A DNA stretch of 64,000 nt from Adineta ricciae (Eukaryota; Rotifera; Eurotatoria; Adinetida; Adinetidae), in NCBI GenBank assembly GCA_905250025.1, contig CAJNOJ010000144.1, positions 151,573 through 215,572 of the forward strand, read 5' to 3'. Both the position numbers and the translations under genes were made by a program. Shown here piece by piece: positions 25,594-58,740 of the stretch. Positions within the stretch are counted from its first letter, which is position 1. The number at the start of each line of letters is the position of its first letter. Under the pieces are notes generated by a model that did not search any database, was not told the DNA's origin, and was given only the letters and a program-made list of their open reading frames with translations.

Positions 25594-25646
25594 TTGTCCA
25601 GTAGCTAATGATAATCAATGTTTGCATTTTGCAATTAGGCGACATA

Positions 25647-30479: not shown

Positions 30480-30638
30480 AATCGCTCTAATCGTCTACAA
30501 CTCTATGTATTTTTTTATTGAAATCAAAATCAAGAATATCATACGAATTTGTTCAAATTCATCTTCAAGATAAATTTCTAAAGTAACTATCTTCTATTTA
30601 GAAGACTTCGGAGTGTGCTAATAATTTTTATTAGAAAT

Positions 30639-30950
30639 TTAATTCAGTTTAATATCGAGTCCACATGTATTACAGCAAGGTGGTTTTCCACAACACGTGA
30701 GACACATTGGAGGTCGGGTGACACGGCTGACCGGAGTGGAAACAGTTGATGTGACTACGGTTGATTCCGTAGTTAGATTAATTAAGTCAGTTAGATTGAA
30801 GTTAAAACCACATTTTGGTAAACCACAGCAGTTACAACAGGGCGGTGGACCACAGCAAGTTGCACACCGTTTTTCACGATTAAGTTCGCTGGAATGAATA
30901 CAGCCGAGGACAAATATTAAGAGAAAAGCAGCTAAAAGATAACTAGGCAT
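30639..30950 (-). CDS. Small Cys-rich secreted protein
   Basis: 103 aa from ATG 30950. A signal peptide (MPSYLLAAFLLIFVLGCIHS) is followed by a dibasic NREKR site. Then come two related Cys-rich blocks, CATCCGPPPCCNCCGLPKC and CLTCCGKPPCCNTCGLDI, separated by a Thr/Ser/Val-rich linker with N-glycosylation sites (NLTDLINLT). No family was recognised. It could be an extracellular structural peptide or a processed peptide with internal disulfides. The frame extends 15 codons upstream to 30995, but the signal peptide fits the second Met. AATAAA on the minus strand lies just after the stop. The gene converges with the ubiquitin-like gene, 159 nt apart. Confidence 0.72.
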   Translation of the reverse strand: MPSYLLAAFLLIFVLGCIHSSELNREKRCATCCGPPPCCNCCGLPKCGFNFNLTDLINLTTESTVVTSTVSTPVSRVTRPPMCLTCCGKPPCCNTCGLDIKLN

Positions 30951-30998
30951 ATTGAATAAAACACGAAAAATGTGCAAATAGTCAAATATTTGCACTGA

Positions 30999-31006
30999 TT
31001 TTTATA
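30999..31006 (-). promoter_or_regulatory. Candidate TATA box of the Cys-rich gene
   Basis: Minus-strand TATAAAAA about 50 nt before the chosen ATG, a distance that allows a short 5' UTR. It supports the start at 30950 rather than 30995, because a TSS about 30 nt downstream would exclude the upstream ATG. Confidence 0.4.
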
Positions 31007-33488
31007 GTCATGATAATATTAAAGACATCTGTATCAGTTCACATACAATTTAGCATTGCTATTAGTAGGCGTAAATAATTACGTACTTTGTAACTTTAGT
31101 TTTCTCTTGAAAATTTTGAAGTTAATGTCAATGCAGATGCATATATTTATTAGAAGAATCCATCAAACGTTTTCTTCCACGTTATCTTATTTTAGTTAGC
31201 AACGAGCAGATAGAACCTACGGGCGTAAATCAATCGTTGATACAAAAAAATTGCTGACAAGACTGATTTTCCTGCTAATAGAATGCATCTTGTTCTTCAT
31301 TCATATTCAGTGTAAGACATTGGCGGCGCACCGTGTAGGCGAAGGGAGGCAATAAAAAGTTATTGTCTCACCTATCTACTACATCGTTTGATAATTCTTA
31401 TTGTCTTCTCTTATATACACATTTTTTGATAGTTTTTTATTAAAAAAACATATAGCCATTGTGGGACTTACCTTCTTTCCTACAAATTATGTTGATAGAT
31501 GCCACACCAGCACTATAATGAACAGCAATTAATCTCTTTAATAATTGACGTTTTATTATGAGAACATATGGTTATAAAAGCAAAAAGCGATTTGTACTGA
31601 TAGCTTACTCGAGATTTTATTTCATTTTTTCGAAAGGACAATTTTGCTATGTGATTACCAATGATCAGAAGGGAACGTGGAGGAAGAAAAAGAAGAGTAA
31701 TAGACTTTTCTCAAAATAGGAACGTTTTGACAGAAAAGTTTTTAAAAATTATTGTAGTTCTTCGAAAACTGATTTTAAAATTTTCAAGAATTCATCAGGT
31801 TTTCATAGAAACTTGCGAAGATTTGCGCCAACATTTTTAGAAGATAAGTAAATTAATACGGCAACGTCGAAATCTCTATGTATCTTTGTGGGTGGAAATG
31901 GAAGGGGTAAATGATGTCACTGAATTCTCTATCAACAAAGGTACCTCTGTCTCGAAAATTGACTGCCTCCCCTAAAATGTTGGTCTTGCACCGACCATGT
32001 TTCTTTGAGCTTTACCTTTTGAGAATAAGTTCTCTCGTAAACAATATTTTTTCTTGCTGTAGACTTCATCTAGAGAACCTATAAAACTGCAGCTCTTGAA
32101 AGTTTAAAAAGAGCCTTATGTTACGGTATAGTGAAGAAAAAACGTATGAATTAAAAACTTGACCGCAAAATCTAATGATTTACTGAAAATAGTTTCCAAA
32201 TAGCTCAAAAAAGAAATGAATCGAATTCAGTAGATGTTCATGAGTCAAAAAGTCTATCATAGTAATACTTTCAATCGAAATCTGTTAGAAAATATATAAG
32301 CAAATATTAGATCCATGAAAAAAGAACTGGGTCTACATTTCCAGATATATCGCAAAACTCTTCCTAAAAGTAAATGAAGCGGATAATTAGTTGATGATAT
32401 TCTTGTTTAGTTTTTCACGGTGCATCTTTCTACGGTAATCCGACTAATTTTCTTTCAGTAGTTAAGGAATAACAGACGAAATAATTCTGAAAAACTGGGT
32501 CTACAGTTAGTATGTAATTAGAGCTTTTTTATTTTCTGGCCTACTTAAAAAATGTTCGCCATAATTATCTGTACATACTTTTGTAGCATTTTTTATGCTC
32601 TATCTTTTAGTGGTTTTGATTTTTTTCAAAAATATGCTCCTTAATCCTCCAGCGTCATTTTAGACTGGGTCTACACTTTGTCTGTAAATATGTTTTCGTC
32701 AAATAAAACAAAAATAAACAAAGCAAAAACAAAAGTGAGTCACATACACAGATAGAGAATTTAATTCTGCACAAAACTTGCTGTTCATTTATTTCATTTT
32801 TCTTCCTTCATTCCTTCAAAAATTTCGTTTTCTGTTGATGACTTATAGAAAAAGTGCCTTTTTTCCGCTTGTGTCTCTTATATCTCAGCCGGACAATGAG
32901 CTATGACGCTAAAAGTTTTTGTGGTAGTGAGACATACACAAATGAATGCCAGAAAAAAAGACCTGTGATTGCAATACAGAAACTGGAATTACAGGGGGAA
33001 AAGGTTGAAAAAATGCAATTGTACGATAAAGTGTTTTAGCGGTGAAAAATATCGTAACGGTCTGGAACTTGTGCGAATAAGCTGGGTTCAATCACTAGGA
33101 TTCTATCGGAACCGCTGATCGGATTCGGGCGTATTTCATTGAAATATAGATTAGTAGCATTTCGAAAGAAAGAAAAGGAAAAAACATAGAGAACAATGTG
33201 AGAGAATACTTTTACTGCAAAAGAAACAAAAAAATAGCTTCACTAGAAAAGCTATGCGATCTTTTCCTCTTCCACCATACAATAGCGAAGATGAGGAGTA
33301 TGATCTATGTGAAGCATCAAAGTCCGGAGGGTAGGTTTCAGTAGATATGGGATGTTGGTACAGACCCAAAGCATACAAAAAGAATTGTTTTAAGGAATTA
33401 CAGTCTTTATTTTTTGCACGAAAATTATCCTGTCGAATATATACGTTGTTAACAGTCAAGTGGTTAAAAAGACTATGATTGTTTATCG
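31007..33488. other. 2.5-kb stretch without recognised gene
   Basis: No supported gene on either strand. The word CTGGGTCTACA occurs three times at near-regular spacing (about 32332, 32498 and 32667), possibly the trace of an old tandem repeat. Open frames at 32854 and 33151 have no family content. Confidence 0.4.
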
Positions 33489-36400
33489 TTAATTTTGACC
33501 ACATAATCGTCTCTGAATATTGTTTTTATATCGGTCACATATCTTCTTGAAATGTTGCTTATAAGTTGTAGATGGCAGAACAAATACTATAAATGTTAAC
33601 ATAGATGGTATGAAAGAGATAAAATATCCGATTAAAAATAGCCATGGTTCACTGATAGATTTCATGCAACCAAAAACAAAAGAAAAAATTAATCGTGGTA
33701 TAGCTAATATAACTAAAACGATTGATGTAATAATCAAATGACGATGTTGTAGAAATTCTTTTTTCAATTGTTCATAAAAGCCTTCTTTTGTATTAACAGA
33801 TTTTTTCTGACGGGCTATCAGGATCATAATGATCGAAGCAGACATAAAATTAATAAAAAATGGCACTAAAAAATGAAATAAATTCATAATTGTATTAAAT
33901 TTTTGCACCGAAGATGGATAAAGAACGGTACACCAGATTCGTTTCTTCGTTTCGTCGTCATCGTCATCATCATCAATCACCCGACGATAAATCGGATCAT
34001 GAATAGTTGTAATTATATTCAAGAAAATCACAAACATCGTAAGATATTTTGCTATTTGTTTACTTTTCTTTTGATTAAATGATGTTCCATTAATTGTCAT
34101 TATTGCTCGTTCAACTGCTACACAAGCATTTAACCATTGATTGATATTCAAAGAGATTTGCACGAAAAAATCCATTGTAATACATTGAAATTTTAAAAAA
34201 ATTCGATTTCTATTTCTTATTTGTGTAAGAAAAAGTATCCAAAACTTTAATGTGAACAAAATTGCTGTCAATATCGTCGAAATCGATGAACTTTTCAAAT
34301 AAATTCCGCAACCAATTTGATGTATTTCTTTTGTATTAAATGTCAGTAAAGATAAAATACCATTGATTAATCCAATAATCATCATAATCATCGTTAATAT
34401 TAAACTAAATTGAACAATAAATGGTTGAGAACTTATATTTAAACTTGGTTGAATATGATAACCCAAAATAGCATCAAGTGAAAGACCAAATCCACGTGAA
34501 TTAAACTGACATCGTGTTCCATAAAAACATCTTGGACAAACACAGATTGATGTTTGTGGACATGTGGTACTATCTTGTAGACACTCTGCTTCATTTTCAC
34601 AATTACTTTGACCAGAACAATCAAATTTTTTTGATGAATTAAATTCGAAACAATTTGCAAGACGTTCTTTTCCATAATTTTGACATAAACAAAAGTGATT
34701 CTCATCGTAGAAACAAGAGTATTGATGTGAAGAAATTTGACATGGTATATGATAATATTTAATACGACGAATTAAATGATAATGAGCGATTGTTTCATTT
34801 AATAATTCATTTATATGTGGACAACGATCTGTTGTTCGAAGAATTCGGTGATTAATTGTTGATTTTTCGTAGATTTTTTGTGCGAGAAGTAGATAGTAAT
34901 CATGAAAAACTTTAAGAAAAATCAAATGAAACGGACGTGACCAATGGATTGTAATATTATTTTGATAGAGAGGTATTGCTTTAAAAGTGTTACCATACTC
35001 CGGTGGACGATTATCAAATATTTGCAAAAAATGAATAAGAATTTTGTCTGGTAAACGTATTTTTTTATCGAATGTGATAATAATTCTGTTATCTGAGATT
35101 TCACATCGGTCTCCAGTAAAACCTATGGGACAAATACATTTGATTGTTTTCTTCGACATTACATGTGGATCAGTTGATATACATTGACCACCATTTTGAC
35201 ATGTATTATTCTGTTCACTACGGCACATCGTAGTAGAAAAATGACACTTTGAGCCCCATCTATTGTGTGGACAAATACATAATGATTGATTATTTGGCAA
35301 GATACCAATACACAATGAATCAGATGAACATGTGCAATGATATGAAATCGTACAATAACGACCAGACCATCCACGATCACAAAGACAAAAGCTGTTACCA
35401 TTAGATGAATCAGTGTATTTAATACATCGTCCATGAACGCATCGAAGAATTGAACAAGTTTCTATATCATCATATGTACGCGGAATATTAAGTTGTACTG
35501 CTACACGATGTACAGGTAGAAAAGAAAATTTCAATGGTATCATAAAACTACCTCGATATGTATGTGAAATCTTTTCATAAAGATCGATATGTATAAAATA
35601 GGTTTTATTTGGATCTTTTGGTCGCGATAAATATAACAAATACACATTGAATTTCGTTTTACAATCTCGTACGTATAAATAACTAAATTGTTGATGTGAA
35701 TGAATTAATCGTTCTTGACTATCTTCCATAAGTAAAACATTGACAAGAAACGTTGTACGTCGTGAATCGGAATACGTATGAAATTTTAATGTAAGACTAA
35801 CACGTTGATTTTGATATTGACATTTATTTCCATAGAAACTAGGCGGACAAAGACAAGTTTTAGTTGTTATATTATGTTGATGATCTAACCAAACGGTTAA
35901 AGATAGACCACGATGACAATGTTGGGAATTAAAATGAATATGTCGAGAAATNAATGATGGGCTTTTTTTAATGGTAAACACATAAATCGATTTGTCTGCG
36001 GTGAAACACATATGTGATGATGTGATGGACAATTCAATAATGCTGATACATTACAGTCGACTTCATCTGCTCCATTCAAACAATTCCAAAAACCATCACA
36101 ACGTGTATATGAATTATTACATGGCCAATATTCACATTCTGTTTCGTCTGTGTCATTACGTCCATCGATAAGAATGGGTAATAGTTCTGTGAAACCATCA
36201 CATATAGTAGGAAATGAAATATGATGCCTCACTGATAGCATATTTGTACTATATATTGAATTAGAATTATTGATTATACTACATTTTTCATCATCCCCAT
36301 AATCACAGTCCGTTCTATTATCACATAATCGATGTTTTGCAATGCATTTAGATGAGTTCCAACATTGATAGAAATCTTGTTCGTTACAAATTGTTGGATC

Positions 36401-37089
36401 TTTGTATAATATTGTATTGCATTGACTTAGTTGCCTGATAATTGGTAAAATAAAAGCATTTAACCAACTATCTCGACCAGGGCCTGATGAAGAATAGTTC
36501 AAAGGAAAATCTTCTGGTCGGCGACATGTTTTACCGTTGTATGAAAATAATGATTTGTTCGAGAGGAATCCGTTGCACAACCGATCATCATAACAAATAT
36601 AGTGTGGTGATATGATACCACGTTGCTGCTTAATAGTTTGCTCTTTATCGTAAACAACATAGATATGACCAAAGGCAATCGGTTTCGCTGGTACATGTAT
36701 CATACTCGGACATGTCATATTGATTATGTCTTCACATGGTATTTCAGAACAAAGGGCACGACATGTTGGATTCCATGGATCTGGTAAGCGTAAGAGGCAG
36801 AATAATGCGTCCCAACAATCGTCTGATAAATTATTTGGTTTAGTGGAAAATAATGTTTGTCTTAGTAAAGTATCACGTGATAGTAAACATGAACTGGTAA
36901 ATTTCATTTCTAAAGGAGGATTTCGCGGGCAAATAATATCTTCATTGGCAAATATAGGTTCAGTTATGAATTGATGAGAAGGTCGTAAATCTTCTTTTTC
37001 ATCTGATTGATCGAGACATTCAAAATGAGGATTAATATTATCATGCAAAAATAACTTATCAATACATTGACCATTATCACATCGAAATT
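33489..37089 (-). CDS. LDLa/EGF-type 7TM receptor, C-terminal portion (partial)
   Basis: Minus strand, with an N at 35952 where the reading frame changes, so sequence is missing there. The part 37089-35953 holds LDL-receptor A modules (FRCDNGQCIDK..CLDQSDE; CIAKHRLCDNRTDCDYGDDE; TRCDGFWNCLNGADEVDC). The part 35951-33489 holds EGF-like modules (CLCPPSFYGNKC, CLCDRGWSGRYC, CICPHNRWGSKC, CICPIGFTGDRC, CVCPRCFYGTRC). These lead into seven membrane segments, from IVQFSLILTMIMMIIGLING to FLIGYFISFIPSMLTFIVFV. An Asp run (seven D from GAT/GAC codons) sits in a loop near 33965. This is a chimeric surface receptor with a large adhesive ectodomain, ligand unknown. The missing N-terminus is at 51975-52832. 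Confidence 0.85.
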
Positions 37090-37090
37090 N

Positions 37091-37187
37091 ATAAATTTTC
37101 ACAATAAACCCTAAACCAGATCAAAAACACAGAAAAAATATATAAAAAATCATTTTTTAACGTGGCGCACGAACTTTTTCCTCAACC
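37091..37187. other. Junction sequence after N
   Basis: About 100 bases between the N at 37090 and the start of the large duplication. They do not continue the receptor and have no counterpart at the left edge of copy 2. Confidence 0.4.
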
Positions 37188-38028
37188 TAATATGATAGAA
37201 TGAATTGCCTACATAGCTAAAAGCGAAGAACCGATTTAACCTTATAGATCAAAGTTTCGTATGCATTTTTTCCGTTCTCTTGTAGAATATGTGACTGTCG
37301 TAGAAGATACCTATTGTTTAGTAATAGGAAATACTATTTCATTTACTGAGACCTAATCAAATGTTTTTACCATGTGTATACTCTCAGACAAATCGTCTCA
37401 ATATTATCACAGGATCGGTAAGAAATAATTGTTCGAAGAAACCTTTGATTAATAACTTCGTTTGTTTTCTTTTTTCTGTGTACTATTATTTTGAATCGGC
37501 TTTATGCTTATAGAAACTGATTAGACAGGGGACCGTGGCTACGTATTACGATAATTAGCTTCAAAAGTCTTTTCAGTGCAAAATTCAACTCAAATCTGAA
37601 GGTCTATACTACAAGATAAAAGTTTTCAATGCATACTATCGTTCATTTGAGAACTTTTTAGAAGCGGGTGCGTTGCTTGATGTGTTCATACTTAAAATAG
37701 AATATTTATCACACACGAAATGTGCTTAATTATCTACAAGAATAAAACTATCCTGACTGCATTATTCTCTATTTTTCAATTAACAAAATCCTTTGATTCT
37801 CTAAATTTATACTAAAAATCTTCGAGTAGGATAATTTTTGTTAGAAATCAAACGACAAGCGTCTACACAGAAAAGATATCAAGAGAAAAAGAAACAACGC
37901 CGACATTATCGTTAGTAGTGTGTGCCTTAAAACCGTTGAGAAACTACATATACAATTTCCATACTAATAATTATTATTAAATCCGTCGTTCATTTATTTA
38001 GGTTTTAAGAAAATAAATAGTTTCTACA

Positions 38029-39046
38029 ATGACATTGAGTATTATCCTCTCAACAATTCAAACGCAAATCAGTCGCTATTTTATTTCAACAGCTTTAGCG
38101 TTTGGTATAATTGGATCTTTACTAAATATCTTACTCTTCTCCCATAAACGATATCGAAATAACTCATGTTGCATTTGTAAAGATAGTATATTGCCTACAG
38201 TTCAGTATTCATAACTTCTTTTTTATCATAGATTTTATAACGGCATCATTTGGAATGCTTGTTGCAATGTGTTTTGGACTGGTGCCTAGTATCTATTCAG
38301 TAGATCATCCCAATCCGGCAAATACAATAAATGCAGTTTGTCAATTGCGCAACTATTTTGGTCAATGTGGTACGATGACATATCGATGGTCACTAATTAT
38401 GGCTTGCCTTGATCGATATGCTTCATCATCATACAGTGTTCGTTTGCGAGCATTTGCTAAATCACATATTGCTGTTCGTGTTTCATTAATTATTGCAAGT
38501 ATATGGATCATAGTGCCTATACATAATTTCATATATCTTAATATCGTTGATGGTCAATGTATATGGCTACCAGCCGGCTCTGCAATTTACAACAGCATGA
38601 TGGTTGTTGTAGCAGGTGGACTATTTCCAATATCAACCATGATTACATGCGGAATACTTATTCGGAATAATCTCAAACACAAACGTGAAATTCGTCGAAG
38701 TAAAGTTCAATCAATGAAGGAAAATGCAAGAGATCGACAAACTTTGATCATGCTAGTTATTCAAATTATTTTTTATATGATATTAACATTACCGTGTGTA
38801 TTAAATGTAATCTATAGCGCTTTTACATTCTATGTCGCAAATAAGACCAATGATAGAATAGCTATCGATTCATTTCTTGAGTTTATGAGTGAAACCCTTG
38901 CATATACATATTCAACATCATCATTCTATTTGTATACATTATCATCACCTTCATTTCGTGAGCATTTCATCAAGATTATATATTCCATTTTCAAACGCCT
39001 TAATCAATACCATACTCATTTACATCGTGTAGCACCATCAATTTAA
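38029..39046 (+). CDS. Rhodopsin-like 7TM receptor, copy 1 (2 exons)
   Basis: Exons 38029-38176 and 38232-39046, with a 55-nt intron; 320 aa. TM1 IISTALAFGIIG-type segment (RYFISTALAFGIIGSLLNIL), then the intron in the loop after NNSCCI. TM3 ends MACLDRYASSS with an intact DRY. TM5-TM6 are joined by a basic loop (KREIRRSKVQSMKENARDRQ), and TM7 (STSSFYLYTLSSPSFREHF) leads into helix 8. This is the style of the FMRFamide/peptide-receptor-like receptors that are abundant in rotifers; ligand unknown. AATAAA lies about 25 nt after the stop. It forms a pair with 56778-57796. Confidence 0.88.
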
Positions 39047-40048
39047 GAACTTAAAAGATTGACTATTGAAATAAACTTTTAATGGATTTTATATGTGAAA
39101 TGTAACAAATAAGATTACTTAAATAAATCAAACATATTATAGACGAGAAATGTATCTCGTTTATTAAGAAATATTTTCTTTTAGTTAAAATTTTTTGATA
39201 GAAAAATATCTCATTAGTTACACCTGAGCTATTTTTAGTATTTCAAGTGATTATCCAATTAAGAGATTGACAGGCGACGATTTGAAAGAAGTACTTTTTT
39301 TTGTACTTCATCGCGTGTCTCAAACCATGATAGTAGATGAGATGATTGGGAAAACGATTCAAATTTTTGTAGCATACACTTAGTTGCATACATGCAATTA
39401 TTTCCCATCTATTTATCATTCGTCTTACTTGAAATTCAAAAACAACAACAATAAAAATACATCAGCGATGCCTCGAGAAAAACTATGGTAATTTTTGGTA
39501 TAATAAGTACTGTTATCTTCTTTTCATCTCGATTATCAATGATTCGTAATGAATATAATTCTCAATACATCGTCGGATTTGTCACTGATCAGATCAGCTC
39601 GAATCACTCTGGCGCTTTTATTTGAAATTCTTGCGATATGTATTGAACTATGGAGTGATAAATATTCGATTTTATTCGGCTAATATAAAAATAAAGATAT
39701 ATATAGGTTCCAAATATGAATATTAGCACTAATTAAGTGGAAATACATACAGCCGCTCTTTATATTCTTTCTGCTATATAGTAGATTTTTTTCTGTGAAA
39801 AAGAAGAATCTCTTGATTGTTTGAGAAGATATACGCAAGTTAAAAAGGCCGATTTTTTGTTTATTGTAACTATTACTGCCTTTTGCTGCTCGTGTAGTGC
39901 GCCAGTGTAAGAATGTATTAGCCAAACGTTATATGAAATTCTTATTGTGCATTTAGATTGTCTATGATTTCATGTCTTTGACTGTAGTTTATAGTTCGAA
40001 AAGAATCTAATTGCTGGCGAGTTAAAATAACTCATTTCCCTGCAATTA
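39047..40048. other. Gene-free stretch downstream of receptor copy 1
   Basis: 3' flank conserved with 57797-58590 of copy 2 up to about 39755. Beyond that the sequence is present only in copy 1. No gene recognised. Confidence 0.45.
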
Positions 40049-40234
40049 TTACTGTTGATCAATTGGCTTCATTACTGCAGTTTGGTCCGTCCCGTAGCGC
40101 AATTCCAAAGCATCAAAAGTTCTAACCAGAGTATGCATGGATAAATGATTTTGACAGCGAAAATGATGCAAATGGATTTTCACGCCAAAGATCAAAACTA
40201 ACCATTTCCAATTATTTAATAACGTGCACTCCAA
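40049..40234 (-). pseudogene. Possible pogo/Tigger-type transposase fragment
   Basis: The 61-codon minus-strand frame ends SMHTLVRTFDALELRYG then TDQTAVMKPIDQ. The order of an LELRY strand and a T.AV..P.DQ block resembles the region around the second catalytic Asp of pogo/Tigger transposases (ELRFLPPNTT..QPMDQ). The Asp itself (family DNCSAH) is not readable here. It lies in the part that copy 2 lacks. Weak call based on one motif. Confidence 0.3.
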
Positions 40235-40338
40235 TGGAACCGACAGAAAATGTTATTAATTATCGACATCAATAGAATGGAAATGACAGAGAACGAGAAC
40301 GTGAGTTTATTTTTAATAGTTTTTAAAAGAGAGACAAA

Positions 40339-40765
40339 ATGCTTATTCGATTTTTTGTAGCATCACCTATATTCAAGATTCAAAAACGAGAACTAATCCC
40401 ATGTACGAATGTAGACTATGTTCTCATGCAAATAAAGGAAAGTTTTTATTTCAGCAATGATCAATGTAAATTTCGTCATACAAAATGTCAGACTACCATT
40501 ATTGTCCACGATATAACTGTTTGCTTGCCCATTCAGACCCAAAGTGTGTCTTAGTAAAGATCGACGCTACAATTATGATTGTGTATATGATCATCCAGAA
40601 GGATGGACGGTTCGTACTAAAGGAATACAATGTATGAAATATGAATGTGATGTAAATCATCCACCCGGAGTTATGAAAAAAAAAATGTAATAAATGGAAA
40701 CCAGTGCAAAAACAATAAGAATAATGTGTGCAAATTTCGTCATCTGAAGATAAATGTTGAAATGT
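40339..40765 (+). pseudogene. CCCH zinc-finger protein relic, copy 1
   Basis: Readable pieces in changing frames: NDQCKFRHTKC, then after a shift DRRYNYDCVYDHPEGWTVR, GIQCMKYECDVNHPPG and later NNVCKFRHL. The C-x4-C-x3-H spacings fit tandem Nab2-like CCCH RNA-binding fingers. Stops occur after SVS and after KKKM. The same relic is even shorter in copy 2 (58610-58740). A dead gene; the fingers would have bound poly(A)-rich RNA. Confidence 0.55.
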
Positions 40766-40924
40766 GTTCACCTTGAGGGTGAAGGGGTGGGTGATGATGG
40801 AAGTTGAATAGTTTAAAACTCAAGTACTCGAATTCTAAATTGACAGATTCAGAATTTCAACGAAAGTTTTAATACTCGAATCGAGTTAACGATTCCTACA
40901 CTACTCTCAACAAAGAAATTAATA

Positions 40925-41520
40925 CGAAGATTTGGTGCAAGAAAAAATGGCTCGAAATGAAAATGGAAGAAAATCGTTAAAATTGATTTTTCAGGAATAT
41001 TTACAGTTGTACACTTTCATAATAGCAAAAATGATGTAACTTATGCTAGTTTAAGAGAAAAATCGATATTGAAATATCCAGATGGCGTAATGATTTGCAA
41101 TGCGATTTGCACGGAGGGTTTGATACCTCACGATGGCCTTTTCCATATTTCTGAATGGTTACAAGACCAACGCCCAAACGGTAAACATAAAAGAATGCAT
41201 ATAACTGGCGAACTATATGCTATATTTTATGTGTAGAAGCCGTTTCAGCACTTAATTAAGTCGTACATTTGGATGCGGCCATTTTGCAAGATGATCAAGA
41301 CTCAAAACATAGAACACAAGTAGCTATGGATGTTGCTTGTGATCTTTTTGAGGATAGGATTCACCTAAATGATGGAGATGTCCAATTTGCGGAATTACGA
41401 AAGAGCATCTTGATGGTGTGGATGCGGCGATGCTGAATACTTGCACCCACTCATTCACAATCACACTCACCCTCGAGTCGGTCCTTACCTGTTTCATCTC
41501 TTTGCAAGCTTCATAAAGAT
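40925..41520 (+). pseudogene. DDE-type transposase relic, copy 1
   Basis: Pieces in several frames: KYPDGVMI, CTEGLIPHDGLFHISEWLQ, QRPNGKHKRMHITGELYA, then HLDAAILQDDQDSKHRTQVA and AMDVACDLFEDRI. ILQDDQDSKHRT has the shape of the second catalytic Asp block of Tc1/mariner-like transposases (LQDnDPKHTS). The copy in duplication 2 (59030-59650) keeps FVGVWPVGNICGI, the region of the third acidic residue. Stops and frameshifts in both copies show it died before or soon after the duplication. The superfamily is inferred from motif order only. Confidence 0.55.
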
Positions 41521-41887
41521 TGACAGCACTTTTCAGGCTTTAATCAAATTTTTATGCAGAATCTCCTGTAATTACTTTTTTTACTGGATTCTATTGAAAG
41601 TACATTTGCCACGTGAGCATTGCGTTGATTAATTTTATGTATATAATATTCTGAAGTCTATCTCATGCATGTACTACTGTTGTGTGCTTTGCATACATAA
41701 AGGAAACAAAAAACAATAGCTTTCATAGATTATTAAAGCTTTCCGTAAAAAAAATCTTTTTTCGATCATAGAAAAAAGTGTGGGCAAAGTATATACAAAC
41801 AATAATGTAATTATGCATGAGCAAAATCATCAGCAACGAGTCAGAAGAATTGACAGGTGTTTCTCTCTAAAGAACGACGGTGTATAT
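41521..41887. other. Gene-free stretch
   Basis: Conserved between both duplication copies but without gene content; it ends at a conserved hairpin. Confidence 0.4.
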
Positions 41888-41938
41888 CTTGCTTCATTTC
41901 ATACCTTATGGTTACTATAAGATATGAAATGAGGCAAG
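41888..41938. repeat. Hairpin-forming inverted repeat, copy 1
   Basis: 22-nt arms around a 7-nt loop; one G-U and one C-A mismatch. The counterpart at 60025-60075 keeps the pairing although the arms have changed at several sites. Confidence 0.7.
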
Positions 41939-42328
41939 CAGTGACTGGATACTTTGTACTTGTCCTCGTCCAATCATTAAATATGGTACACAGTTCCTAT
42001 GTGGGTATTTAAATTTCTTTTCTTCATGAAAATTAGCTACAGACTAGAGCTTTTTTTCTATGCTAGAAACAAGGGCGTGATTGGTATCATGTGGGAGCAA
42101 TGAGTCTAATTACGGCAAGACGACTTTGGTGGTTTTCAATCTGCCTTACCTATGGTGCACACTTGCGATTTATCTGATAGTGCTGCACAGCTGAGCATCA
42201 CCAACGGAACAGCTTTTAGATCGAGCAGCCCATCGCGAAGATGATCTGTACAAATATATATCCTTTAATTATTTTAGATTAATCATTGACGACCTTGAAG
42301 GCTCTAACGGGCACAGTGTATGAGGTAA

Positions 42329-42353
42329 TTCCCTCGACTGAAAGGAGGGTCAT
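42329..42353. repeat. 25-bp CCCTC..GAGGG repeat, copy 2
   Basis: Matches 1827-1851 with one mismatch (CTGAAAGG versus CTGTAAGG). Confidence 0.7.
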
Positions 42354-43307
42354 ACGAAAAAAATAGTTGGTATGTTTGTCTGTTTGTGTCAGGATCAGAG
42401 GTCAAAGGTCAGAAAAACATTTTTTTCGAAAATGCTCACAACTTCATGAAACATCGTTTAGGAGGAATCCTGAGGCTCTCGAGGTTGGCTGGATGACGGG
42501 TGAAGGGGCAGGGACGTGACAGAAATGAAGAAAACATTTCAACCGCGCCTGAGAGGAGGGCTATATAAAAGAGTTGCTTACAAAAAAGTAAAAACACACT
42601 CGATTGACTGTCGCATACTACAGGCCAGTAATCCAAAAATACATTCATTCACAAGATAATACTGGAGAGCAATCTTAAATGCTGAGCTTCGATATATTGA
42701 GAGTTTTTGTAGGCCTTTAAGCCTTTTAATTAAGGAGATAACCTCAAATGTTCGGACGAGAATAATCTTATCCATGAGATGCTGATGGAATGCTAATTAA
42801 TTTTTGATACTTTTTAGTAGCACACGGATAATTATATGATAGATAGGGACAACTTTGGAGCGGCGAGTTGTGAGTGACGACCCTGTGGGGCGCCGACGAA
42901 CAACGAGCTGCGCCTGGTAATCTAGTCAGTTACCAAAGTATCAACAATCCGACACGTTCGAATGCGAAATATATACAGAGTCTCATTTGGTCTTGGCGAA
43001 ATTATCTTTCTTTTAGAAAAAGGAGGGCATGTTCAAAGGTGCAATTCCATAATAGTCATTTATAGCGAACTTCTGCTTCCTGTGAAGAGTAATTGTCAGT
43101 CAGGAATATAGAATAATTAAAAGCAACACAAGTAGTCCTTTAACTCTTTTGACGGCTGTGAGGCGAATGAAGATCAGTCTCTGGGAACCCTTTCAAAGGT
43201 TATACTTCTGTCTTTCTTTTTTGCATAAAACGCACATAAGACTATTTTATTTTCAGTCAATGGTTCAGCCGAGGGCATAGCGAGTCTGCCTTGACGAACG
43301 TTACCAG
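42329..43307. mobile_element. About 980-bp insertion present only in duplication copy 1
   Basis: In copy 2 the sequence GTATGAGGTAAGATTAGAGAA is continuous. In copy 1 it is split at GAGGTAA, and the right side resumes at ATTAGAGAATACG near 43307. The insert begins with the 25-bp CCCTC..GAGGG repeat and contains a canonical-looking CTATATAAAAG at about 42560-42570. No coding frame or terminal inverted repeat was recognised. It could be a non-autonomous element or solo LTR, or copy 2 could have suffered a deletion. Confidence 0.45.
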
Positions 43308-43450
43308 TATTAGAGAATACGAGAAGCCAGTATGAAAATGGAAAGAAGAAAAGTTTCCTAACGACATGATATGAGATTGATTAGGATATTTGTATTCTTA
43401 CAACTATGGAAAAGTGACAAGACAAACAGATAAATACAAGGAAGGAAAAG

Positions 43451-43514
43451 CGAGACTTCAGAGCTGAAATACTTCATCTTACTTCAAATACTGCATGAAG
43501 TAGATGAAGTCTCG
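43451..43514. repeat. Second conserved hairpin, copy 1
   Basis: CGAGACTTCA plus TACTTCAT on the left pair with ATGAAGTAGATGAAGTCTCG on the right, with a small asymmetric bulge. Present almost unchanged at 60772-60834. Confidence 0.6.
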
Positions 43515-44143
43515 TTTTTCCCCCTTGCATAAACATCAATCCAAGAGCAGTGACAATAATTTATATAAAAATAGCTACGATGCACCAGAATCAATGTAAT
43601 TCATGACTTTAAAAGGCCCAGATAGTCATAAGATAGGGAAGAATAACAACCGTATCGACAAAGTAATCAGAGCTCAATGCTATCATAGGAGAAAAATGAT
43701 GAGAGAGAAGAAAGAAAAAAGGATTGCACATCGCACATTACCATAAAAATGTTTCTGGGAATTCACACAAGGTCTCAATGTCGGCTGGGTGAAAGTTCAG
43801 AATTGAATCGTTGTCCGGGATATCTGCATACAATGAAGAACATCTTTCGATTACCGAAACGTACTCCACGTAGCGCTTCATTTGTAGGATTCCCATGATA
43901 CTGCTCTTACCCGTTAACCAAATGTTTCTTAAAGCATTAAGATTACTCTTTTCCAGTGCTAGTCTTCCGTTCATCTCGAGGGCAACTGTGGGATGAGTAA
44001 TCAGTATAGTTATTATTAATACTTTCACCCACACCCTAAAAAATTACTCTTCCTTCGCTTTTGTCACAATGTAAACGGCGGCTTCTAACGGGTTCGACAA
44101 AGAGATATCGTATATGCCTTTTCAGATATTCATTCTTTGAAAT
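43515..44143. other. Upstream region of the membrane-protein gene
   Basis: Conserved with 60835-61344 except for a ~140-bp piece missing in copy 2. A minus-strand frame (44034-43738) starts with a signal-like segment but is destroyed in copy 2, so it is not called. The C-rich CACCCACACCC at about 44025 belongs to the dispersed G-rich repeat family. Confidence 0.4.
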
Positions 44144-47100
44144 ATGATCGAAATGATTCATATATTAGTAATTGCTTGGCAATGTTTTATTGCCATCGAG
44201 AGCATTCACTTCAATGGCGGTACGATTCGGTGGGAACCTGTTGATCCCCAAGCCAATTCAAGCCTGGTTGCGATTAATATCATACAATCATATTCTTGGA
44301 GCTATCCGACGATACAATGTGCAAACGATGTGCCAATTTCCACCAGTGGCCGAAGTGGTACGAACGCCAATCTAACATGCGTTGTCGACTGTTCAAGCGA
44401 TGGTGGCTATTCAGCGAACCCAGTGAATATTTTAACTGATTGTGTTTCGACTATTCCGTCGCTAAGCATGATGACTAGTAAACGATCAGTCAATACAACA
44501 CTCAAAGCCGATGCACACTTCTACATATCGTATCGAGGAAGTGCTTGGCGGACTATAGGAAGTCCACCACAAAGTGATCTTTACTGGTCAATTGTGTGTT
44601 TCATTGACCTTCGACGACGATCAGATGGTATCATAAACACCCCACCCGAAGCGAACGTCATTTCACCACAATATGCCATCGTGAACAGGACCACTCAAAT
44701 ACAAATACCCGTGTCAGATGTCAATGCAGGTGATGATTTACGGTGTCGATGGTCAGTGTATGTGCCTGGTGTTCGAAGACGGAGACAGTCAAATGCAAAC
44801 CAAAATCTATATGACCGATCGGCGCACCAGATGTATAGAAAAATAGACGCAGACGGAGAAATTCCTCATATTAGAAAAAAAAGAACATGTGGTGGTGGTT
44901 ATACATGCTATGGTCCGACGTGTGATTATAGTTGCTGTTGTTCCAGTGCATCTTGTTCATCAGCACCTAGCTGTATGGGTCAGAACTGTAACTCACCTTC
45001 TGGTTGTCCGATTATAACAACAACTACGACAAAATCAACAACAACTATGAGAACATCAACAACAATAACAACAACTGAAAGTATGACTACCGTGGAAACC
45101 GCAGGAACGTTACCAATCACTAGCTCATATCCAATACGCCAGCCCATTGACGAATGTGGCGGTATTTGCTATCCGAATACGGTACCCGTTGGTACGACTT
45201 TGTCAAACTGCACACTAACATTTACAGGACTTATACCAAACACTTGGTATGCTGTCTCAATTCAAGTAAGCGAAGCTGAAATGTATAAAGAGAAGGAGAA
45301 AGAGTTCGGGGAACGACTAATTCTAATATAATATATCATGTGCCCTGCAAAACTATACATGACCTAAAATATCAATAGGTATTTCAATTTTCGACGAGTC
45401 CGTAGAATATAGGGGATTCTCTCTCTTCACCACTAAGACTTTCGTTAGTTATTGGCTAAAGTTAGTGACATCATTAAAATATACTCACATATGTGCAGTA
45501 AGTGTATGTTTAAATATGAGTGTATCAAATTTTGAAACATAACGTGTTGGAGTAAATAGGAAACAATGTTAGAATAAGCAACAAAAATTAATGTAAGAAC
45601 CGCTGGAATAAGATAACTAAAGAATATAATTCGAATATTTTAATCAGAACCTGTTATTGAACTTGATGGTGATGATGAACTAGATTTTGAAATGTTATTT
45701 GTGTTTTTCTTTTCTTCTGCGGCCAACTGGTTCGTCGACTAGATATGCAAATGATATTACTATATCAATCAATGAGCTTCTATCTGACTGTAAAAAATTT
45801 AATAGTTTCTCGGCTTGTTTAGCTTTACATGCTGCTCCATGAGTTACGACAGGCATTACATAATGTCATGATGATGATATAGACGAATATTATCTGAGTA
45901 TAATTGTTGGTAATCTATTTACTCGATACCAGATTTACGGCCATATAAATGAAAGGTCGATAAAATTTCGCCGATGGCGAAAATCCGACTTATGTAAATC
46001 TTATTGAAGAACCTCCCACCAGTCGAATATACAGCTTCTTCGTTGTAGACCATGCTCAAACGTTGTAAAATTATAAATCTTAATTCCCAATGAAATCTTC
46101 ATGAAGAGTCCATAATAGAAAAGACGTAAAGAAATTTTTTAACTATGATATTTTATATGACAGATGTCCATTGCGCTTGAGAATATGCCGCGCCGCCATC
46201 GAAATATTTTACGATCAACTATCATTTTAGAAGAAAATATAGAAATTGATATAAAAACTATTTCAAAAGCTTAGAACGAGACATAAAGATATTTTGAGGT
46301 TAAGACACTGTTGTAGATCATAGAATAAATCAGTTTAATATTGAACTGATTCATGAGAGAGGCAATTTGTATTAAATCAAACGTTGCATTGTCTCTTGGT
46401 TGGGACATCTGGTCGTAAAGGAGTAAAGAAAAATAGACTGCTGCTGCCGCGACGCACCATGACGGTCAGCGAAAATAAAGTATCGATACCGCCACCGGCG
46501 CGATGGAATCTCTATTTCATACCAATTTATTGATTTTCTGAAAATACATTGGTGTTGAAATCTGCACAACTTGTATTCTAGCAAGTTGTTCAACAAAACG
46601 ACCATTTTCAGCCTTTTGTATGAATTTTTTAGACGAGAGCACTATAAAAATCTTAACTACCAAAGAAATTGTATTCGTGAATATTATTTGATCTGTGTAT
46701 TATCACACATGTTGGCCAGGCTTTCAGAGTAGGTAAGGAACGGCAGTTCTGAAGTATTATGTGTCGAGTTCCAAAATCCGAACACGTATTAGCCAATTAG
46801 AATAGCTAGGAATTTTTTGGAAATTATGCAAGCCACGCAGAGCAGTTATTCTGAATTGATGATTACCAGAGAGTTTACGTTTCTCTGTAGTGCCATTCAT
46901 TTTAAGGATCTCCCTCTTGCAGAAACTGACTTTTTCAAAAGAATGAAAATTGAGTTTTTTACATAGAAAGATGCGCCGGAGCTTCCTGTTTCCGAGTATA
47001 TGTAGTTTTTTTGTAAAGCGATTAAGTTTTCACAGATTTATCGGGAAAATTTCAGCACAACCGTAATCGACTTTTTTACAATTCTGAATAAACTGTCTTA

Positions 47101-50100
47101 CTATATGAATCTGTATTGAATAGAATGACTTTGTATTTAACACTAAGCACTTACCAGCACTCAAGATCACGGTTATATATTTATTTTATCATCAATATTG
47201 AATATTTAAAGTTTAAGTGTATTGTATAAGTATCTATTTGGAAAAGCGAAGTTTCTTGAAAACCAAATTTTTAACCTATACTGAAATATTCCACTAATCT
47301 AATGTTGATCGATTTGTATCAGAAATAAGATAATTGATAATGTGTTGCAGCTGAAAGAGCATAAGTAGCGTTTCAGTCATGGTTACCGAACACTTTCAAT
47401 TTTTTTAATTTAATAAAAAAAATGCGATGAACCTTAATATCCAGAAAATACAGTTGTGTATAAATATGTACAATCTTGAAAGTGTGGGCGTGGCATGTGA
47501 GAAAATGAATTAACTTCTTGCTGATTCGATTACGAAATGAATGCGTGTGTATTGATTTAAAAATTAGATTAATCTCATCACATATTGTAATAAACACCTA
47601 GGTGATACGAATAAAAGCATTTTACAGATTGCCAAATTTTTTTCCCTTCCAGAACAATTTGTCCTTTTTCCATATTCTCATTCTATGATTATTGCGTTGA
47701 ATGCGTTTGAAAATGTAATAAAAAGTACGGCACAATACTAAAATATATAATCTAGAAGTTTTCGCACCAAACACTATAAAATGCACATATAACATTCCTT
47801 TGCAGGTTGAAGATTTTATAAACTCTACCAGTATGACTCCTATGAGCTCAGTTCCAGTTCAACTTCTGATTTATGTCATGCCGACACCAAACTGTTCCAT
47901 AGCACCGAGTATTGTGCCACTGGATGGCTGCCTCGAAGTAACAGCAAGCGTTATGAAAAGTTTCAATATATCTATAATCAATAGATGTAACCCTTTCATC
48001 TCGAATGTCAGTAGTGTTGTTGTATCGAAAGGAGTTACTGGGATGCAAGTTAGCAATATAACGCAATCATCAACAAATGTATCCATGTTCTATACTACAT
48101 TTACTTGGACACCGCAAACAAATCAACTTGGTCAGCAACAATTGTGCATAATAGCTGTCACTGAGTAAAGTTGCTTTTGTCTCATCTAATGATGATTGCA
48201 TCGTACATTTTTCATCATTTTAGTGAGATGGTACAATCTGCGGAGTATTGTGTTATATTCACTGTAATAGCTTCATATTCTCCATGTGTGACAACAACGA
48301 CTAGTACAACGACATCCTCAACCAGTAGCACTACAACCACTTCGACAAGCTCGAGCACCACATCAACTTCAACCACAACAACTACGACTAGTACAACGTC
48401 AACATCAACTTCCACAACAAGTACAACAACGACTACAGTCACTACGACGTAAGTTTAATTATAATTGAAATTGAAAACATGGATACGGCTCAAATTTCTT
48501 TCGTGTCAATGTTCTGCTTCACTGTTCTCGATGAAGAGAAATACTGATTCATCATCATTTCTACATACAAATGAAACACAGCTCATAATTTTAACAAAAA
48601 AGCTCTTATCTGAGGTAGATTATCATTCACATTTAGGCTACACAACTATGAATAAGTATCGAAAGATTGAGGGTGAGGGTGTAGGTGAGGATGAAAATGT
48701 CAATAATAGGTATGCTGACTACGCAGTCTACACCCAAACCTCGTTGTTCTTGAACTCTTTCATGAATTCACCACAAACCACATGCAGCCGAAAAGATAAT
48801 CTTTTGACTTTGGATATATTTTTCAGAACAACGACAACAACAACGGCAACACCAACGCGTCTAGGTATAGTATCCAGAATTGCTTGTTTGAACTTTCGGC
48901 TGATCTGACGTTGTTGCTGCGATATTCGCAGCAATCATTCTAAGATTTTACGAATTTTCGAGTATTTCTAGAGCTTAAGTAATGAATTATTATACTAACC
49001 TTGACTTTAGATGACCACAAAAACAGTATATATATATATATATATGTGGATAGAACAAAATACGTTTTTGTATGAAAAGGAAAATCAAATTTTCCAAAAG
49101 ATAGAAATTTATTAGCGTGATCGGAAGGATATTTAATTACGTACAGACAGTTATCATTGTTGTCACTTTAAACTAGTTCGGCAACAAGCGAATGAATATT
49201 CAATGAAATAGAACGAATACTACAGTACTTACGATTGTCAAACTTCCATCAATGCACTGTCATCACAAGATGAGTAATACTGAGATTGTATTTCTTAAAG
49301 CTTAGTTTTACTTTTTAATCATATATATAAGATATTCTCCGTCTTGTAAATTAAATGAAATTGATCTACTTTTTTAATGCGTATCTTAGCAACCATAGTA
49401 ATGTAGAAACTGAGGAAAAATAAACAAAAATAGTAGGAAAAAAGTAGTGTAATGAACGATGAGTCTAGTTTGTATTAAATGTTGAAATATTCTCCTGCAG
49501 AGTTCTAGAAACAATAATTACGTATAGTAGTGAACATTTCATGAAACGAAGCAGGTCTCGAAACGCCGCCGATCTGTCTAATTTTCAATATCAAAATTGA
49601 AAAGACAGAAAGATTGATACGAAAATCTTTGGTGCTAACGATGGACAACTGACAAGATCTGCTAGATTACACATTAGCATTTCTTTCGCATTAGCTGTAA
49701 TAAAGTCAATTTTTGATCGAAATAGGCGTAATGATTCGTATTTTGACGTCTTTGAATAGCTGGAAAAAAGTTTATTTTATGATTTGAATACAGTATGAAA
49801 TTATGAGCCGATATTCAAAGAATAAGTTTATCGTTGCAATGTGTATTTTTGAATAGGAAGCAAGATCAAATGGCCGCTTATATTAGGATTATCATTGTTG
49901 TCTCTACTGTTAGCTTGTTGTTGTTTCGGCTGTCTTACCTATTGGCTGTTGCGGTAAGTTTTTGTCTTTCACTTGTGTAGTAGAATCTGCCGACTTATCA
50001 TATCATTTTCACCTTGCGGGGAACAGTGGAATCTATTGCATTTTGATTAGTTCCTTAAAACACGATTCTTGTATGAATTTTTTCCGACAAGTTTTGCCAA

Positions 50101-51185
50101 AATTTCGTTGAACATTTTCTAAAACTGATTTAATCTCATTCGGGGAAAACTATGTTAGAATTTCAATTGCATCGAGCTAATATAAACTCCGTATAGTTTG
50201 AAGACAGCGTTGGCAAAACGAAACAAAAACTAACAGTCCCACTAATCGGGCCATTCGGCTAAAGTTTACTATATAAGTCCCATGAAAAATGGACACTTAG
50301 GTAGCACTGATACCAACCAAACCAATAAACAATCACCTAACTATGAAATCTCTGAGTTTCATCAAGTTCTAAAATAGAAGAGGCTTGTTTCAATTCACGT
50401 AGTCGTTAATCAAGGAGAATTGATTTTGAAATAGGAAATCTGCAAGGCATCGTCACCAACAACAGAAAGAGAAACGTATTGATCATGATCTACCGTCTGT
50501 GGAACGCGTTGGGCAAAAAACACGTTATCGTGAATTGAATAAAAAAATTCGACTTACAACACCTAATGTCAACGATCATGCGTACGATTCAATCGACCTC
50601 ATTAAGAACAGAGACAGTTACTTATCCATGACTAAAAGTCAAACAAGTGCAGAGATCAATGACATTCGTGTACAGGACGCTGAAACCCCTTTTGAAATTA
50701 GAAATGCAACGATTCAATCGCCAAATCATGTACAAGAAAATAATAGTGCATCAGTGAATCATCGTCCTGGAGTTGAAGTTTGTCGTGTGAGCCGAATGTC
50801 CAAGTTGTATGAGAGCAATGAAAGTCTAAGCAACACACAAAGATTAACTACTAACAAGCCAACAAGAACTGCATCAACATCACCGCGGAAGGCTAGTGGA
50901 ACTACTGTTATTAAACTTCTACGAAACAAGAACGTCAGGGCTGTTAGTACCGATGCAAATTCGAATAAACTCGACGAGCAACGATATTGCGATGAAGCAC
51001 TTTCAATTTCGACAAATAAAACAAATCAAATCTTGATCAAAAGTAGTAAATCAACAGCAGTAAAAACTGTCGATTCATCTCTGAAGGCCCAATCGCGACC
51101 GACCAGTCTTCGTGAAATTAGAGTTGTCAAAGTTCCAAAATCAATAATCACGAGCCCCGTTGTCATTGACTTGCTGAAAGAGTAA
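44144..51185 (+). CDS. Single-pass membrane protein with Thr/Ser-rich stalk, copy 1 (6 exons)
   Basis: Exons 44144-45265, 47806-48164, 48224-48448, 48827-48864, 49857-49953 and 50435-51185; all five junctions have GT..AG and keep frame, giving 863 aa. Exon 1 encodes a signal peptide, a conserved ectodomain (FNGGTIRWEPVDPQ; ISPQYAIVNRTTQIQIPVSD), two furin-like basic sites (GVRRRRQ, IRKKRT), a Cys-rich segment and a Thr run, then ECGGICYP. Exon 2 is a beta-rich module (SSVPVQLLIYVMPTPNC..FTWTPQTNQLG). Exons 3-4 are an almost pure Thr/Ser stalk, probably O-glycosylated. Exon 5 encodes the membrane helix (PLILGLSLLSLLLACCCFGC) at about 587-611. Exon 6 is a basic, Ser-rich cytoplasmic tail. Function unknown; surface receptor or adhesion role inferred. 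AATAAA lies near 51357. Confidence 0.8.
45266..47805 (+). other. Intron 1 (2.5 kb) with coding-like relics
   Basis: Unusually long for this window, where most introns are 48-61 nt. It includes a conserved piece reading VIELDGDDELDFEMLF near 45655-45700, then HELRQALHN and LFTRYQIYGHINERSIKFRRW. A short ATG frame MPRRHRNILRSTIILEENIE lies near 46184. The same pieces with substitutions are in copy 2. They look like the remains of an inserted gene or transposon that predates the duplication. Confidence 0.45.
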
Positions 51186-51304
51186 AATTTAACGTCAACA
51201 CAATCATGTTAAATATTATGTAATGAACAATTCTTTAGCATCCGAACTTCCAAAACTCAGCTTCTTCAAACATTTTCAGTCTTTTATCAAAGAACTGTAT
51301 GATC
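51186..51304. other. 3' flank of the membrane-protein gene
   Basis: Short gene-free stretch; nothing recognised apart from AT-rich 3' UTR-like sequence. Confidence 0.4.
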
Positions 51305-51356
51305 GGGTGGGTGATGGTGTTAGGTAGATTTAATACCAACACCATCACCCACACCC
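51305..51356. repeat. G-rich / C-rich hairpin 1
   Basis: GGGTGGGTGATGGTGTTAGGTA followed 7 nt later by its near-perfect complement ending CACCC; about 22-bp arms. A member of the dispersed G-rich family in inverted form. Confidence 0.75.
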
Positions 51357-51478
51357 AATAAATAAAGTAGCATTTGACAAACTATTAGAAAAATTATTTA
51401 AATCATTTCGAAGATCTATTGATAAAATTGTTTGTACTAATATTTTTGTCGCTTGAGTTTTACAAGTACCACTGAATA

Positions 51479-51539
51479 CTTGAGGGTGAGGGTGGGTATA
51501 AGAACGACGAGACATATTATACTCACACCTACACTCAAG
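51479..51539. repeat. G-rich / C-rich hairpin 2
   Basis: CTTGAGGGTGAGGGTGGGTA on the left and TACTCACACCTACACTCAAG on the right; 23-bp arms with a 15-nt loop and a few mismatches. Confidence 0.75.
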
Positions 51540-51705
51540 ATATGATATTTTTTATCATAGTTGGATATCATGTTAAATAGCTCATTATGTGTTCTTATGT
51601 GATGAGCGTACGATACTTTTTTTCCTTCCTCTAACTCTCACTGATTGTTCATATAGCCAGTGTTTCTTTCACTTCTGCTCATTCCCATGTGAAATTTTTT
51701 TGAGT

Positions 51706-51893
51706 GTAAACGCGTTTAAAACGCGTTTGGGATGCGTTTCAAACGCAAGGCACAAACGCATCCAGACGCGTCTTTCAGATGCGTTCAACCGCGTCTCTCT
51801 CTCAAAACGCGTCCACACACGTCCGAAGAGACGATGAAACATCTGACGGCATAAACGCGTTTGTTTTTCAAAACGCGTCCAGACGCGTTCGAA
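51706..51893. repeat. ACGCGT-rich palindromic cluster
   Basis: At least seven ACGCGT or CGCGT cores in about 190 bp, arranged as AAACGCGTTT and ACGCGTCCAGACGCGT in both orientations. Strongly GC-rich and CpG-rich against an AT-rich background. It lies 80 bp before the N at 51974. Confidence 0.75.
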
Positions 51894-51974
51894 GAGATGG
51901 CTTTTTCCAAAAAAGCATTCTATTCCTACAGCTTTGACCTGCGTCACCATCATTCTCTCCTGATGTTCATCTCN

Positions 51975-52832
51975 CATTTCTAAAGGAGGATTTCGCGGGC
52001 AAATAATATCTTCATTGGCAAATGTAGGTTCAGTTATGAATTGATGAGAAGGTCGTAAATCTTCTTTTTCATCTGATTGATCGAGACATTCAAAATGAGG
52101 ATTAATATTATCATGCAAAAATAACTTATCAATACATTGACCATTATCACATCGAAATTCATTATCATTACATTTATTTATTTCTAATTGCCAACAAGAT
52201 TCTTCATCAGTACCATTTTCACAATCAATAATTCCATCACATATTTCAGTCCAATCAAGACAAGCTGCTGTTGAAAAACGATTACATTGCAAATGAGTAT
52301 AACATGTCAATGAAGATGGTTCATATGGCTGTTGATAATAATCATGTATAATCTCATTTAATGTTAGATAAGTATCATTATAAAGATCAAATGAATATTG
52401 ACAATATGGACCGAATCTAGGTAATGTACAATTATAAAAATATTGTTCTTCCGTGGAAAATGATGTTTGATTTGTAGTTAAACGTTGTTTCGTATATGAA
52501 TAATAACGTTCAATTACATCGAATGGTGCTGACCAAAGATATAATTGTTCACTAGTAATATTTAATTGATAAAGGTCAGCAAAAGTAAATTTTCGATCAA
52601 TATTATTTTCTTTTAGATTCCATTTTGATGAATATTCGTTCATACAAAAAGAAATTATTTGATAAGGGTCAATTTCTAGTTCATTCCAAGTAGCAACATG
52701 AAGACAATGGTGTTGTAAAGCAGAAACATTTCCGTACTCATTGATCGAATCAGTTAAATCAAGATTAATTTGTGGAAATGTAATTGTAAATGGAACAAAA
52801 ATGAAGCAAAGGATGCCAACTAGAAGTAGCAT
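51975..52832 (-). CDS. LDLa/EGF-type 7TM receptor, N-terminal portion (partial)
   Basis: Minus strand from ATG 52832 (MLLLVGILCFIFVPFTITFP, a signal peptide) to the N at 51974. The ectodomain contains YFYNCTLPRFGPYCQYSF, an LDLa module (CNRFSTAACLDWTEICDGII..CENGTDEESCW) and the module NEFRCDNGQCIDK..CLDQSDE, and ends PRNPPLEM at the N. The last ~190 nt (51975-52164) are the same, with one mismatch, as 36900-37089, the start of the C-terminal portion. Together the two parts would form one receptor; they are separated by about 15 kb. The frame is open upstream to 53006, but the signal peptide fits the ATG at 52832. Confidence 0.82.
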
Positions 52833-53459
52833 ATCATAAAATATTTTAGAAATGTGGAGACTAAATGCACAAAAGAGGCACACCAATGATGAGGACAAAA
52901 AACTTTTTCTAATTGCATATGCTAACTGATTAAATAAGCATCTGTCCATTAATTTGATCGTAATTATATTTCCAACGCATAATTTGATCGTAACTAAAAA
53001 ATGCATAAAAAATGATTGTGTATGATTGTCAGTTAGTCGGCCATCGTGATCTCAACGATAACTTTTTTGATGATAGATCAATAGAATAATTAGCAAGAAA
53101 ACTATCTATGAAAGAAATGAGTGCACAATTAAGAGTGACGAAAATAAACTATCGGTATCATGTAGTCATCATTATAATGCATAAGTGAAACTATGATATT
53201 TTCGTTACTGTTTTGGTTGCGTCTGCAATTGATAAGGAAACATCGCTACGTATGGATTCGAATCCTCAACACAGAAATCATTTGTATTCTGTTCTTTGAT
53301 GATAATTATTTTCTTCTTTATTTCTTTTAGATAACACAAAGAGAAATATTTATGTTTTATATAGATTCTAGTTATCAGATAAAATAAATCTTCTACACAC
53401 ATATTGCTTCATTTTCATATAGTTTACAAAATATTTTTTAACAACTGTGAGGTTCTCGT
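52833..53459. other. Upstream region of the receptor N-terminal portion
   Basis: AT-rich; must include the promoter of the minus-strand receptor. No other gene recognised. Confidence 0.4.
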
Positions 53460-53700
53460 TACACTCTAAAAAAAGGAGCTTTACCGAACCAAAAGGTTTC
53501 ATATACTTCGACTGAACTATTTAAGTTCCGTAGCGTCGAGAAGGTTTGGCAATTGGTAGCAGAAACCATCCACAGGTTTTTCATGCGGTATGCGAAACCA
53601 TTCGTAGTTCTGTAACATGTCTACAGAACCATCAGCGGTTTAGGAGTGTGACGATATGTTTCATCAATTTTCGAGAAGTTTATGACATTTTAAACTAAAC
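53460..53700. repeat. Degenerate ~32-bp tandem repeat
   Basis: Successive units of the form GGTTT..GGTA.C/G.GAAACCAT (for example AGGTTTTTCATGCGGTATGC followed by GAAACCATTCGT). Each unit carries GGTTT and AAACC as a small inverted pair. Weaker units seem to continue to about 53990. Confidence 0.5.
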
Positions 53701-58609: not shown

Positions 58610-58740
58610 CTTTTGTCGGCACATATATGATCATCCAGAGGGATTATAAAAAGAATGTCATAATGGAAATCAGTACAAAAACAATAAGAATAATAATTGC
58701 AAATATTGTCATCTGCAGACAAAGGTTGAAATGTGTTCAT
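58610..58740 (+). pseudogene. CCCH zinc-finger relic, copy 2
   Basis: Only the last part of the relic seen at 40339-40765 remains (YDHPEGL then stop, and NNCKYCHLQTKVEMCS in another frame). The upstream ~820 bp are missing. Confidence 0.45.

Follow-up and report, generated by a model that had tools for sequence, protein, structure and literature searches.

Diverged haplotypes that are assembled apart can be counted as a duplication, as described for haplotypic ("heterotype") false duplications (Ko et al., 2022; PMC9516828). In bdelloid rotifers, assemblies were described in which a single scaffold carries homologous copies and the breaks fall at its Ns, and scaffolding errors were named as a likely cause of at least some of the breaks in collinearity (Nowell et al., 2018; PMC5916493); for Adineta ricciae, two linked homologous blocks were reported there, both of them tandem. 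Such linkage of homologues in bdelloids was once taken as evidence for an ameiotic genome structure, and was later questioned as a possible effect of scaffolding (PMC5916493, PMC7953838). The locus analyzed here, in a stretch of 64,000 nucleotides of A. ricciae DNA (hereafter the window), appears to share these features: two haplotypes seem to have been assembled apart and to read as a duplication, homologous copies stand on one scaffold, and the breaks fall at Ns. Unlike in the cases of Ko et al. (2022; PMC9516828), the second haplotype would also interrupt a gene, with an unmerged overlap at both joins. The cases of Nowell et al. (2018; PMC5916493) concern another assembly and larger blocks, of at least five genes, whereas the present case offers a base-level trace with a transposon at the break.

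Judging from the sequence, we consider it very likely that the split of a receptor gene in this window is an assembly error, in which a 14.9-kb contig of the other haplotype was placed, at single-N joins, inside an intronless gene. The biology of the locus is ordinary, and its value lies in the caution that it suggests regarding linked homologous copies.

A receptor gene in three pieces and its unbroken allele

The receptor is read on the minus strand of the window as three open pieces, namely an N-terminal part with LDLa (51975-52832), a middle part, also with LDLa, on a contig of 1137 bp (35953-37089), and a C-terminal part with EGF and 7TM domains (33489-35951), which forms the right end of a contig (23703-35951) assigned to haplotype 1. 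The N- and C-terminal parts indeed lie on one strand, in the right order and about 15 kb apart, as the initial annotation had described. Pfam recognized LDLa in the first two pieces (32.9 and 27.3 bits, for a cut-off of 24.1) and EGF together with 7tm_1 in the third. The only non-ACGT letters of the window are five single Ns, at 19033, 23702, 35952, 37090 and 51974. A block shared by the N-terminal and middle parts had been given as 190 bp with one substitution; the single mismatch stands, and the length is corrected to exactly 185 bp (36905-37089 and 51975-52159, both on the minus strand). Its copies do abut single Ns, the first ending at N 37090, the left join of the block that separates the pieces, and the second beginning after N 51974, its right join. 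When the window and 40 kb downstream were examined as one piece of 104 kb, which holds eight single Ns, and these Ns were placed at random, two edges of the 185-bp block lay within 2 bp of an N in 0 of 200,000 trials, against two observed, in a test that was designed after the data had been seen.

A search of the genome with the break region brought out a second allele of the receptor on contig C436, at 94%. There, 22548-27269 forms a single open frame from stop to stop, and the receptor has 1565 amino acids counted from the first listed start, a GTG; an in-frame ATG at residue 18 matches the start in the window at 52832. The window pieces correspond to residues 29-302, 243-619 and 747-1565 of this allele. 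Residues 243-302, an overlap of 60 residues, are thus the 185-bp block read twice, and it is here that the 14.9-kb block is located. Residues 620-746, missing in the window, account for about 370 bases of C436, or about 127 codons, that are lacking at N 35952. The frame change noticed at this N is real, the frames on its two sides being out of register, because these bases of the C436 allele are absent there; a second copy of the missing stretch was not found in the genome search. The receptor and its upstream region (51975-55963) have two allele-like places, one on the scaffold of the window (C144) and one on C436, and upstream of the gene the divergence from C436 is 9-13%, reaching 22% in one piece of 136 bp.

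The two copies of the 185-bp block agree with each other at 184 of 185 positions, and with C436 at 175/185 and 174/185. Each copy thus differs from C436 at 10 or 11 positions, against a single difference between the copies, which suggests that the two come from the same haplotype. At the sole mismatch, one copy carries the C436 base; either part of that contig might stem from the other haplotype, or a contig might be in error. The initial proposal that the contigs of a single gene were wrongly scaffolded is supported by these observations, in that the C436 allele is intact without the 14.9 kb, and the contig ends beside Ns 37090 and 51974 carry the unmerged 185-bp overlap of true neighbors, apparently from one haplotype, in line with mis-scaffolding.

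In the C436 allele, Pfam matches to 7tm_1 (41.8 bits) and EGF (26.1 bits) are both above cut-off, and LDLa (22.9 bits) falls just under its cut-off of 24.1; a search of PDB sequences with this allele gave two weak matches, a chemokine receptor and the VLDL receptor, in agreement with Pfam. With 7tm_1, EGF and LDLa together in one open frame, the protein is a 7TM receptor of the rhodopsin family (class A), and the gene is an ordinary intronless LDLa/EGF/7TM gene, with an unbroken allele present in the same assembly. Relaxin-type receptors and the snail receptor GRL101 likewise combine a class A 7TM domain with LDLa modules outside it, and have leucine-rich repeats between LDLa and 7TM. The rotifer receptor has the LDLa modules in common with them, and differs from them by the presence of EGF. 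A relaxin-type (RXFP/GRL101) identity was considered and rejected, no leucine-rich repeat family being among the Pfam matches of the C436 allele at E up to 0.01. Among the papers listed, nothing specific on rotifer receptors of the LDLa/EGF/7TM type was found.

The 14.9-kb block and its partner copy

The block itself (37091-51973, plus strand) very probably represents a misplaced contig of 14,883 bp. Its left end is one end of a mariner-type transposon (37091-37190, plus strand) and its right end is a dispersed repeat (51482-51973, plus strand). The sequence between them, 37191-51481, is allelic to 55967-69345 (positions above 64000 are scaffold positions, numbered from the start of the window), the two being collinear direct copies with 12,479 aligned bases at 91.7%. 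The partner copy, assigned to haplotype 1, starts 4 kb further along the same scaffold, past the break, occupies 55967-64000 on the plus strand of the window, and runs on past its end. This duplication was absent from the initial annotation. When the core of the block (44000-48200) was searched in the 130.46 Mb genome, with a tool that scores the best candidates only, it had two full-length places among the matches listed, both on the scaffold of the window; the remaining matches listed covered no more than 563 bases each, at 66-80%.

Two open frames of the block are 96.1% and 93.7% identical to their counterparts at the nucleotide level; one of the two is a 7tm_1 gene, with alleles at 38126-39043 in the block and 56930-57793 in the partner that are 96% identical in nucleotides. 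Aligned noncoding pieces go down to 87%. Divergence between homologues of A. ricciae was reported with a coding median of 4.6% (PMC5916493) and, elsewhere, as 5.5% (PMC7953838). The pieces compared here diverge by 4 to 13%, and by 22% in one short piece; part of this range exceeds the 4.6% reported for coding sequence, a point against the preferred reading. At 91.7% overall, the block and its partner are copies at allelic divergence and the only full-length places for the core among the matches listed, in line with a haplotypic false duplication. The noncoding pieces at 87%, below the level implied by the published coding median (PMC5916493), would also suit a misplaced contig that stems from a recent paralogue or homoeologue, and not from the other haplotype. 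We consider such an origin highly unlikely: the core of the block has two full-length places among the matches listed, the others being short and at 66-80%, the open frames show a similarity close to that of the receptor alleles, and opposite mariner ends put the block at an allelic site (see below).

The present order of the scaffold, which carries both copies of the region of the block, could be taken at face value, as a real segmental duplication in which one chromosome received a 14.9-kb copy of the neighboring sequence within the receptor gene, flanked by a 185-bp target duplication, so that this allele was broken. A real duplication inserted into the gene was the biological alternative raised in the initial annotation. 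It found no positive support and is, in our view, extremely unlikely. At either junction an N stands directly at the edge of the block, so that there is no base-level junction, and the block ends in repeats that are unrelated to each other, half of a mariner on one side and a dispersed repeat on the other. Moreover, no third copy was found among the matches listed, although three would be expected after a duplication on one chromosome of a diploid, of which a collapsed allele could hide one, and the N-linked pattern is seen again elsewhere on the scaffold. Nor do we see more than a very slight chance that the order is real in the sense of an asexual bdelloid with homologous segments linked in tandem, one receptor homologue having been broken by such a rearrangement. 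Transposition of the 14.9 kb as one mobile unit with a 185-bp target duplication was likewise considered, and was rejected in view of the unrelated repeats at its ends and the Ns at its boundaries.

The mariner at the proposed break in the second haplotype

The preferred reading, a contig of the other haplotype placed inside the gene, is in line with what is found at the end of C436. This contig runs parallel to the window as far as 55963, passes into 294 bp of a mariner-type element and reaches an N at its position 18988. The first 99-100 bp of the block belong to the opposite end of an element of this family, after which the block runs parallel to the window from 55967 on; opposite mariner ends are thus found at one allelic site. 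A full-length mariner on contig C493 has both ends, 1,231 bp apart, and a frame of 353 amino acids that matches Transposase_1 and HTH_48 of Pfam. The mariner ends are inverted relative to each other; at this locus, as in C493, a TA lies next to the outer end on either side. With its inverted ends, its TA flanks and the transposase of the full-length C493 copy, the element is of the Tc1/mariner type; the 72-aa mariner fragment on C436 had no Pfam match of its own. On the simplest reading of these sequences, a mariner would have inserted once, in haplotype 2 alone, and its two sides would now stand in different scaffolds. Most likely, then, the block continues C436 past a mariner present in one haplotype only, and the two would have been part of one molecule. 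The earlier suggestion that 37091-51973 belongs elsewhere is accordingly given a probable location: the block is allelic to sequence 4 kb past the break, and its place would be in the other haplotype, upstream of the receptor and past the mariner.

From a mechanistic point of view, the region would be present as two haplotypes, each assembled separately. Haplotype 1 would consist of 23703-35951, a gap of about 370 bp, 35953-37089 and then 51975-71371, which overlaps the preceding contig by 185 bp. Haplotype 2 would consist of C436 with the unbroken receptor, the mariner, present in this haplotype only, and then the block 37091-51973. The assembly of haplotype 2 may have halted within the repeated mariner, and the block would have been left as a free contig with a repeat at either end. 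The haplotype-1 copy enters a dispersed repeat shortly past 69345, and the dispersed repeats there and at 51482-51973 would account for the contig stopping at this point. Presumably, a scaffolding program then placed the free contig next to its allelic partner, in between two contigs of haplotype 1 that were due for merging, and wrote one N per join; mate-pair or reference-guided ordering of unphased contigs could have placed the block in this way. No program is named as the cause, because the literature gave no usable statement on the single-N convention of scaffolders.

To the left of the gene, 23703-33303 of the window and 27510-36210 of C436 show no similarity over 8-10 kb, the window side being repeat-rich, and no second full-length copy of 25500-33400 was among the matches listed. 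The haplotypes may truly differ in structure here, or a further mis-join may be present; the dissimilarity has no bearing on the break at 37090-51974.

The case shows a likely base-level path by which a transposon present in one haplotype breaks the contig of that haplotype, and the orphan contig is then joined next to its allele through a single N. In this assembly, any single N should be regarded as a join that awaits verification before one counts gene copies, tandem duplications or broken genes.

Single Ns elsewhere in the assembly

In the 104 kb of scaffold, four direct duplications longer than 1 kb and of at least 90% were found, and all of them involve single-N joins. Besides the block and its partner, these are 19742-21487/23703-25463 (94%, with an edge at N 23702), 73465-77110/77262-80877 (90-92%, with an edge at the single N 77111) and 81507-90772/91161-98083 (reported as two chains, 91.5% and 90.6%, which we merged by judgement, with an edge at N 91160). 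The edge is exactly at an N in three of the four, and the fourth (37191-51481/55967-69345) has edges 101 and 493 bp from Ns. With the eight Ns placed at random in the 104 kb, three duplications with an edge at an N arose in 0 of 200,000 trials and both edges of the block lay within 500 bp of Ns in 990 of 200,000, this randomization having been designed after the pattern had been seen. The first of these, at N 23702, had likewise been absent from the initial annotation; 19742-21487 and 23703-25463 are two direct copies of a 7TM receptor gene, probably an allele pair placed side by side.

In the loci examined, the flanks of 21 distinct single Ns were compared, in a sample that omits one locus made of N throughout (L013) and 11 loci that repeat stretches of joined scaffold. 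A suffix-prefix overlap was found at two, another similarity at two and none at 17; Ns 37090 and 51974 count among the 17 because their overlap spans the interposed contig. Control positions gave some similarity in 16 of 200 cases and a suffix-prefix match in 1 of 200. These counts show that overlap or duplication directly across a single N is not the rule, and Ns as such are not generally points of duplication. Contig C233 has one mariner copy (about 2364-3989) in which two overlaps, of 221 bp (99.5%) and 175 bp (100%), are left unmerged at two single Ns; this copy spans 1,626 bp vs. 1,231 in C493, and the excess matches the two overlaps.

On C436, the 1.76 kb at 17228-18987, ending at N 18988, is a 95% direct copy of 27504-29265, and a 7TM-like open frame near this N is cut by it, which makes the join doubtful. 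With regard to the window as a whole, no Rfam family matched at gathering thresholds, and GC content is 31-34.5%. An open frame of 667 amino acids on its minus strand (14487-16487) carries all three Pfam domains of galactocerebrosidase (glycosyl hydrolase 59).
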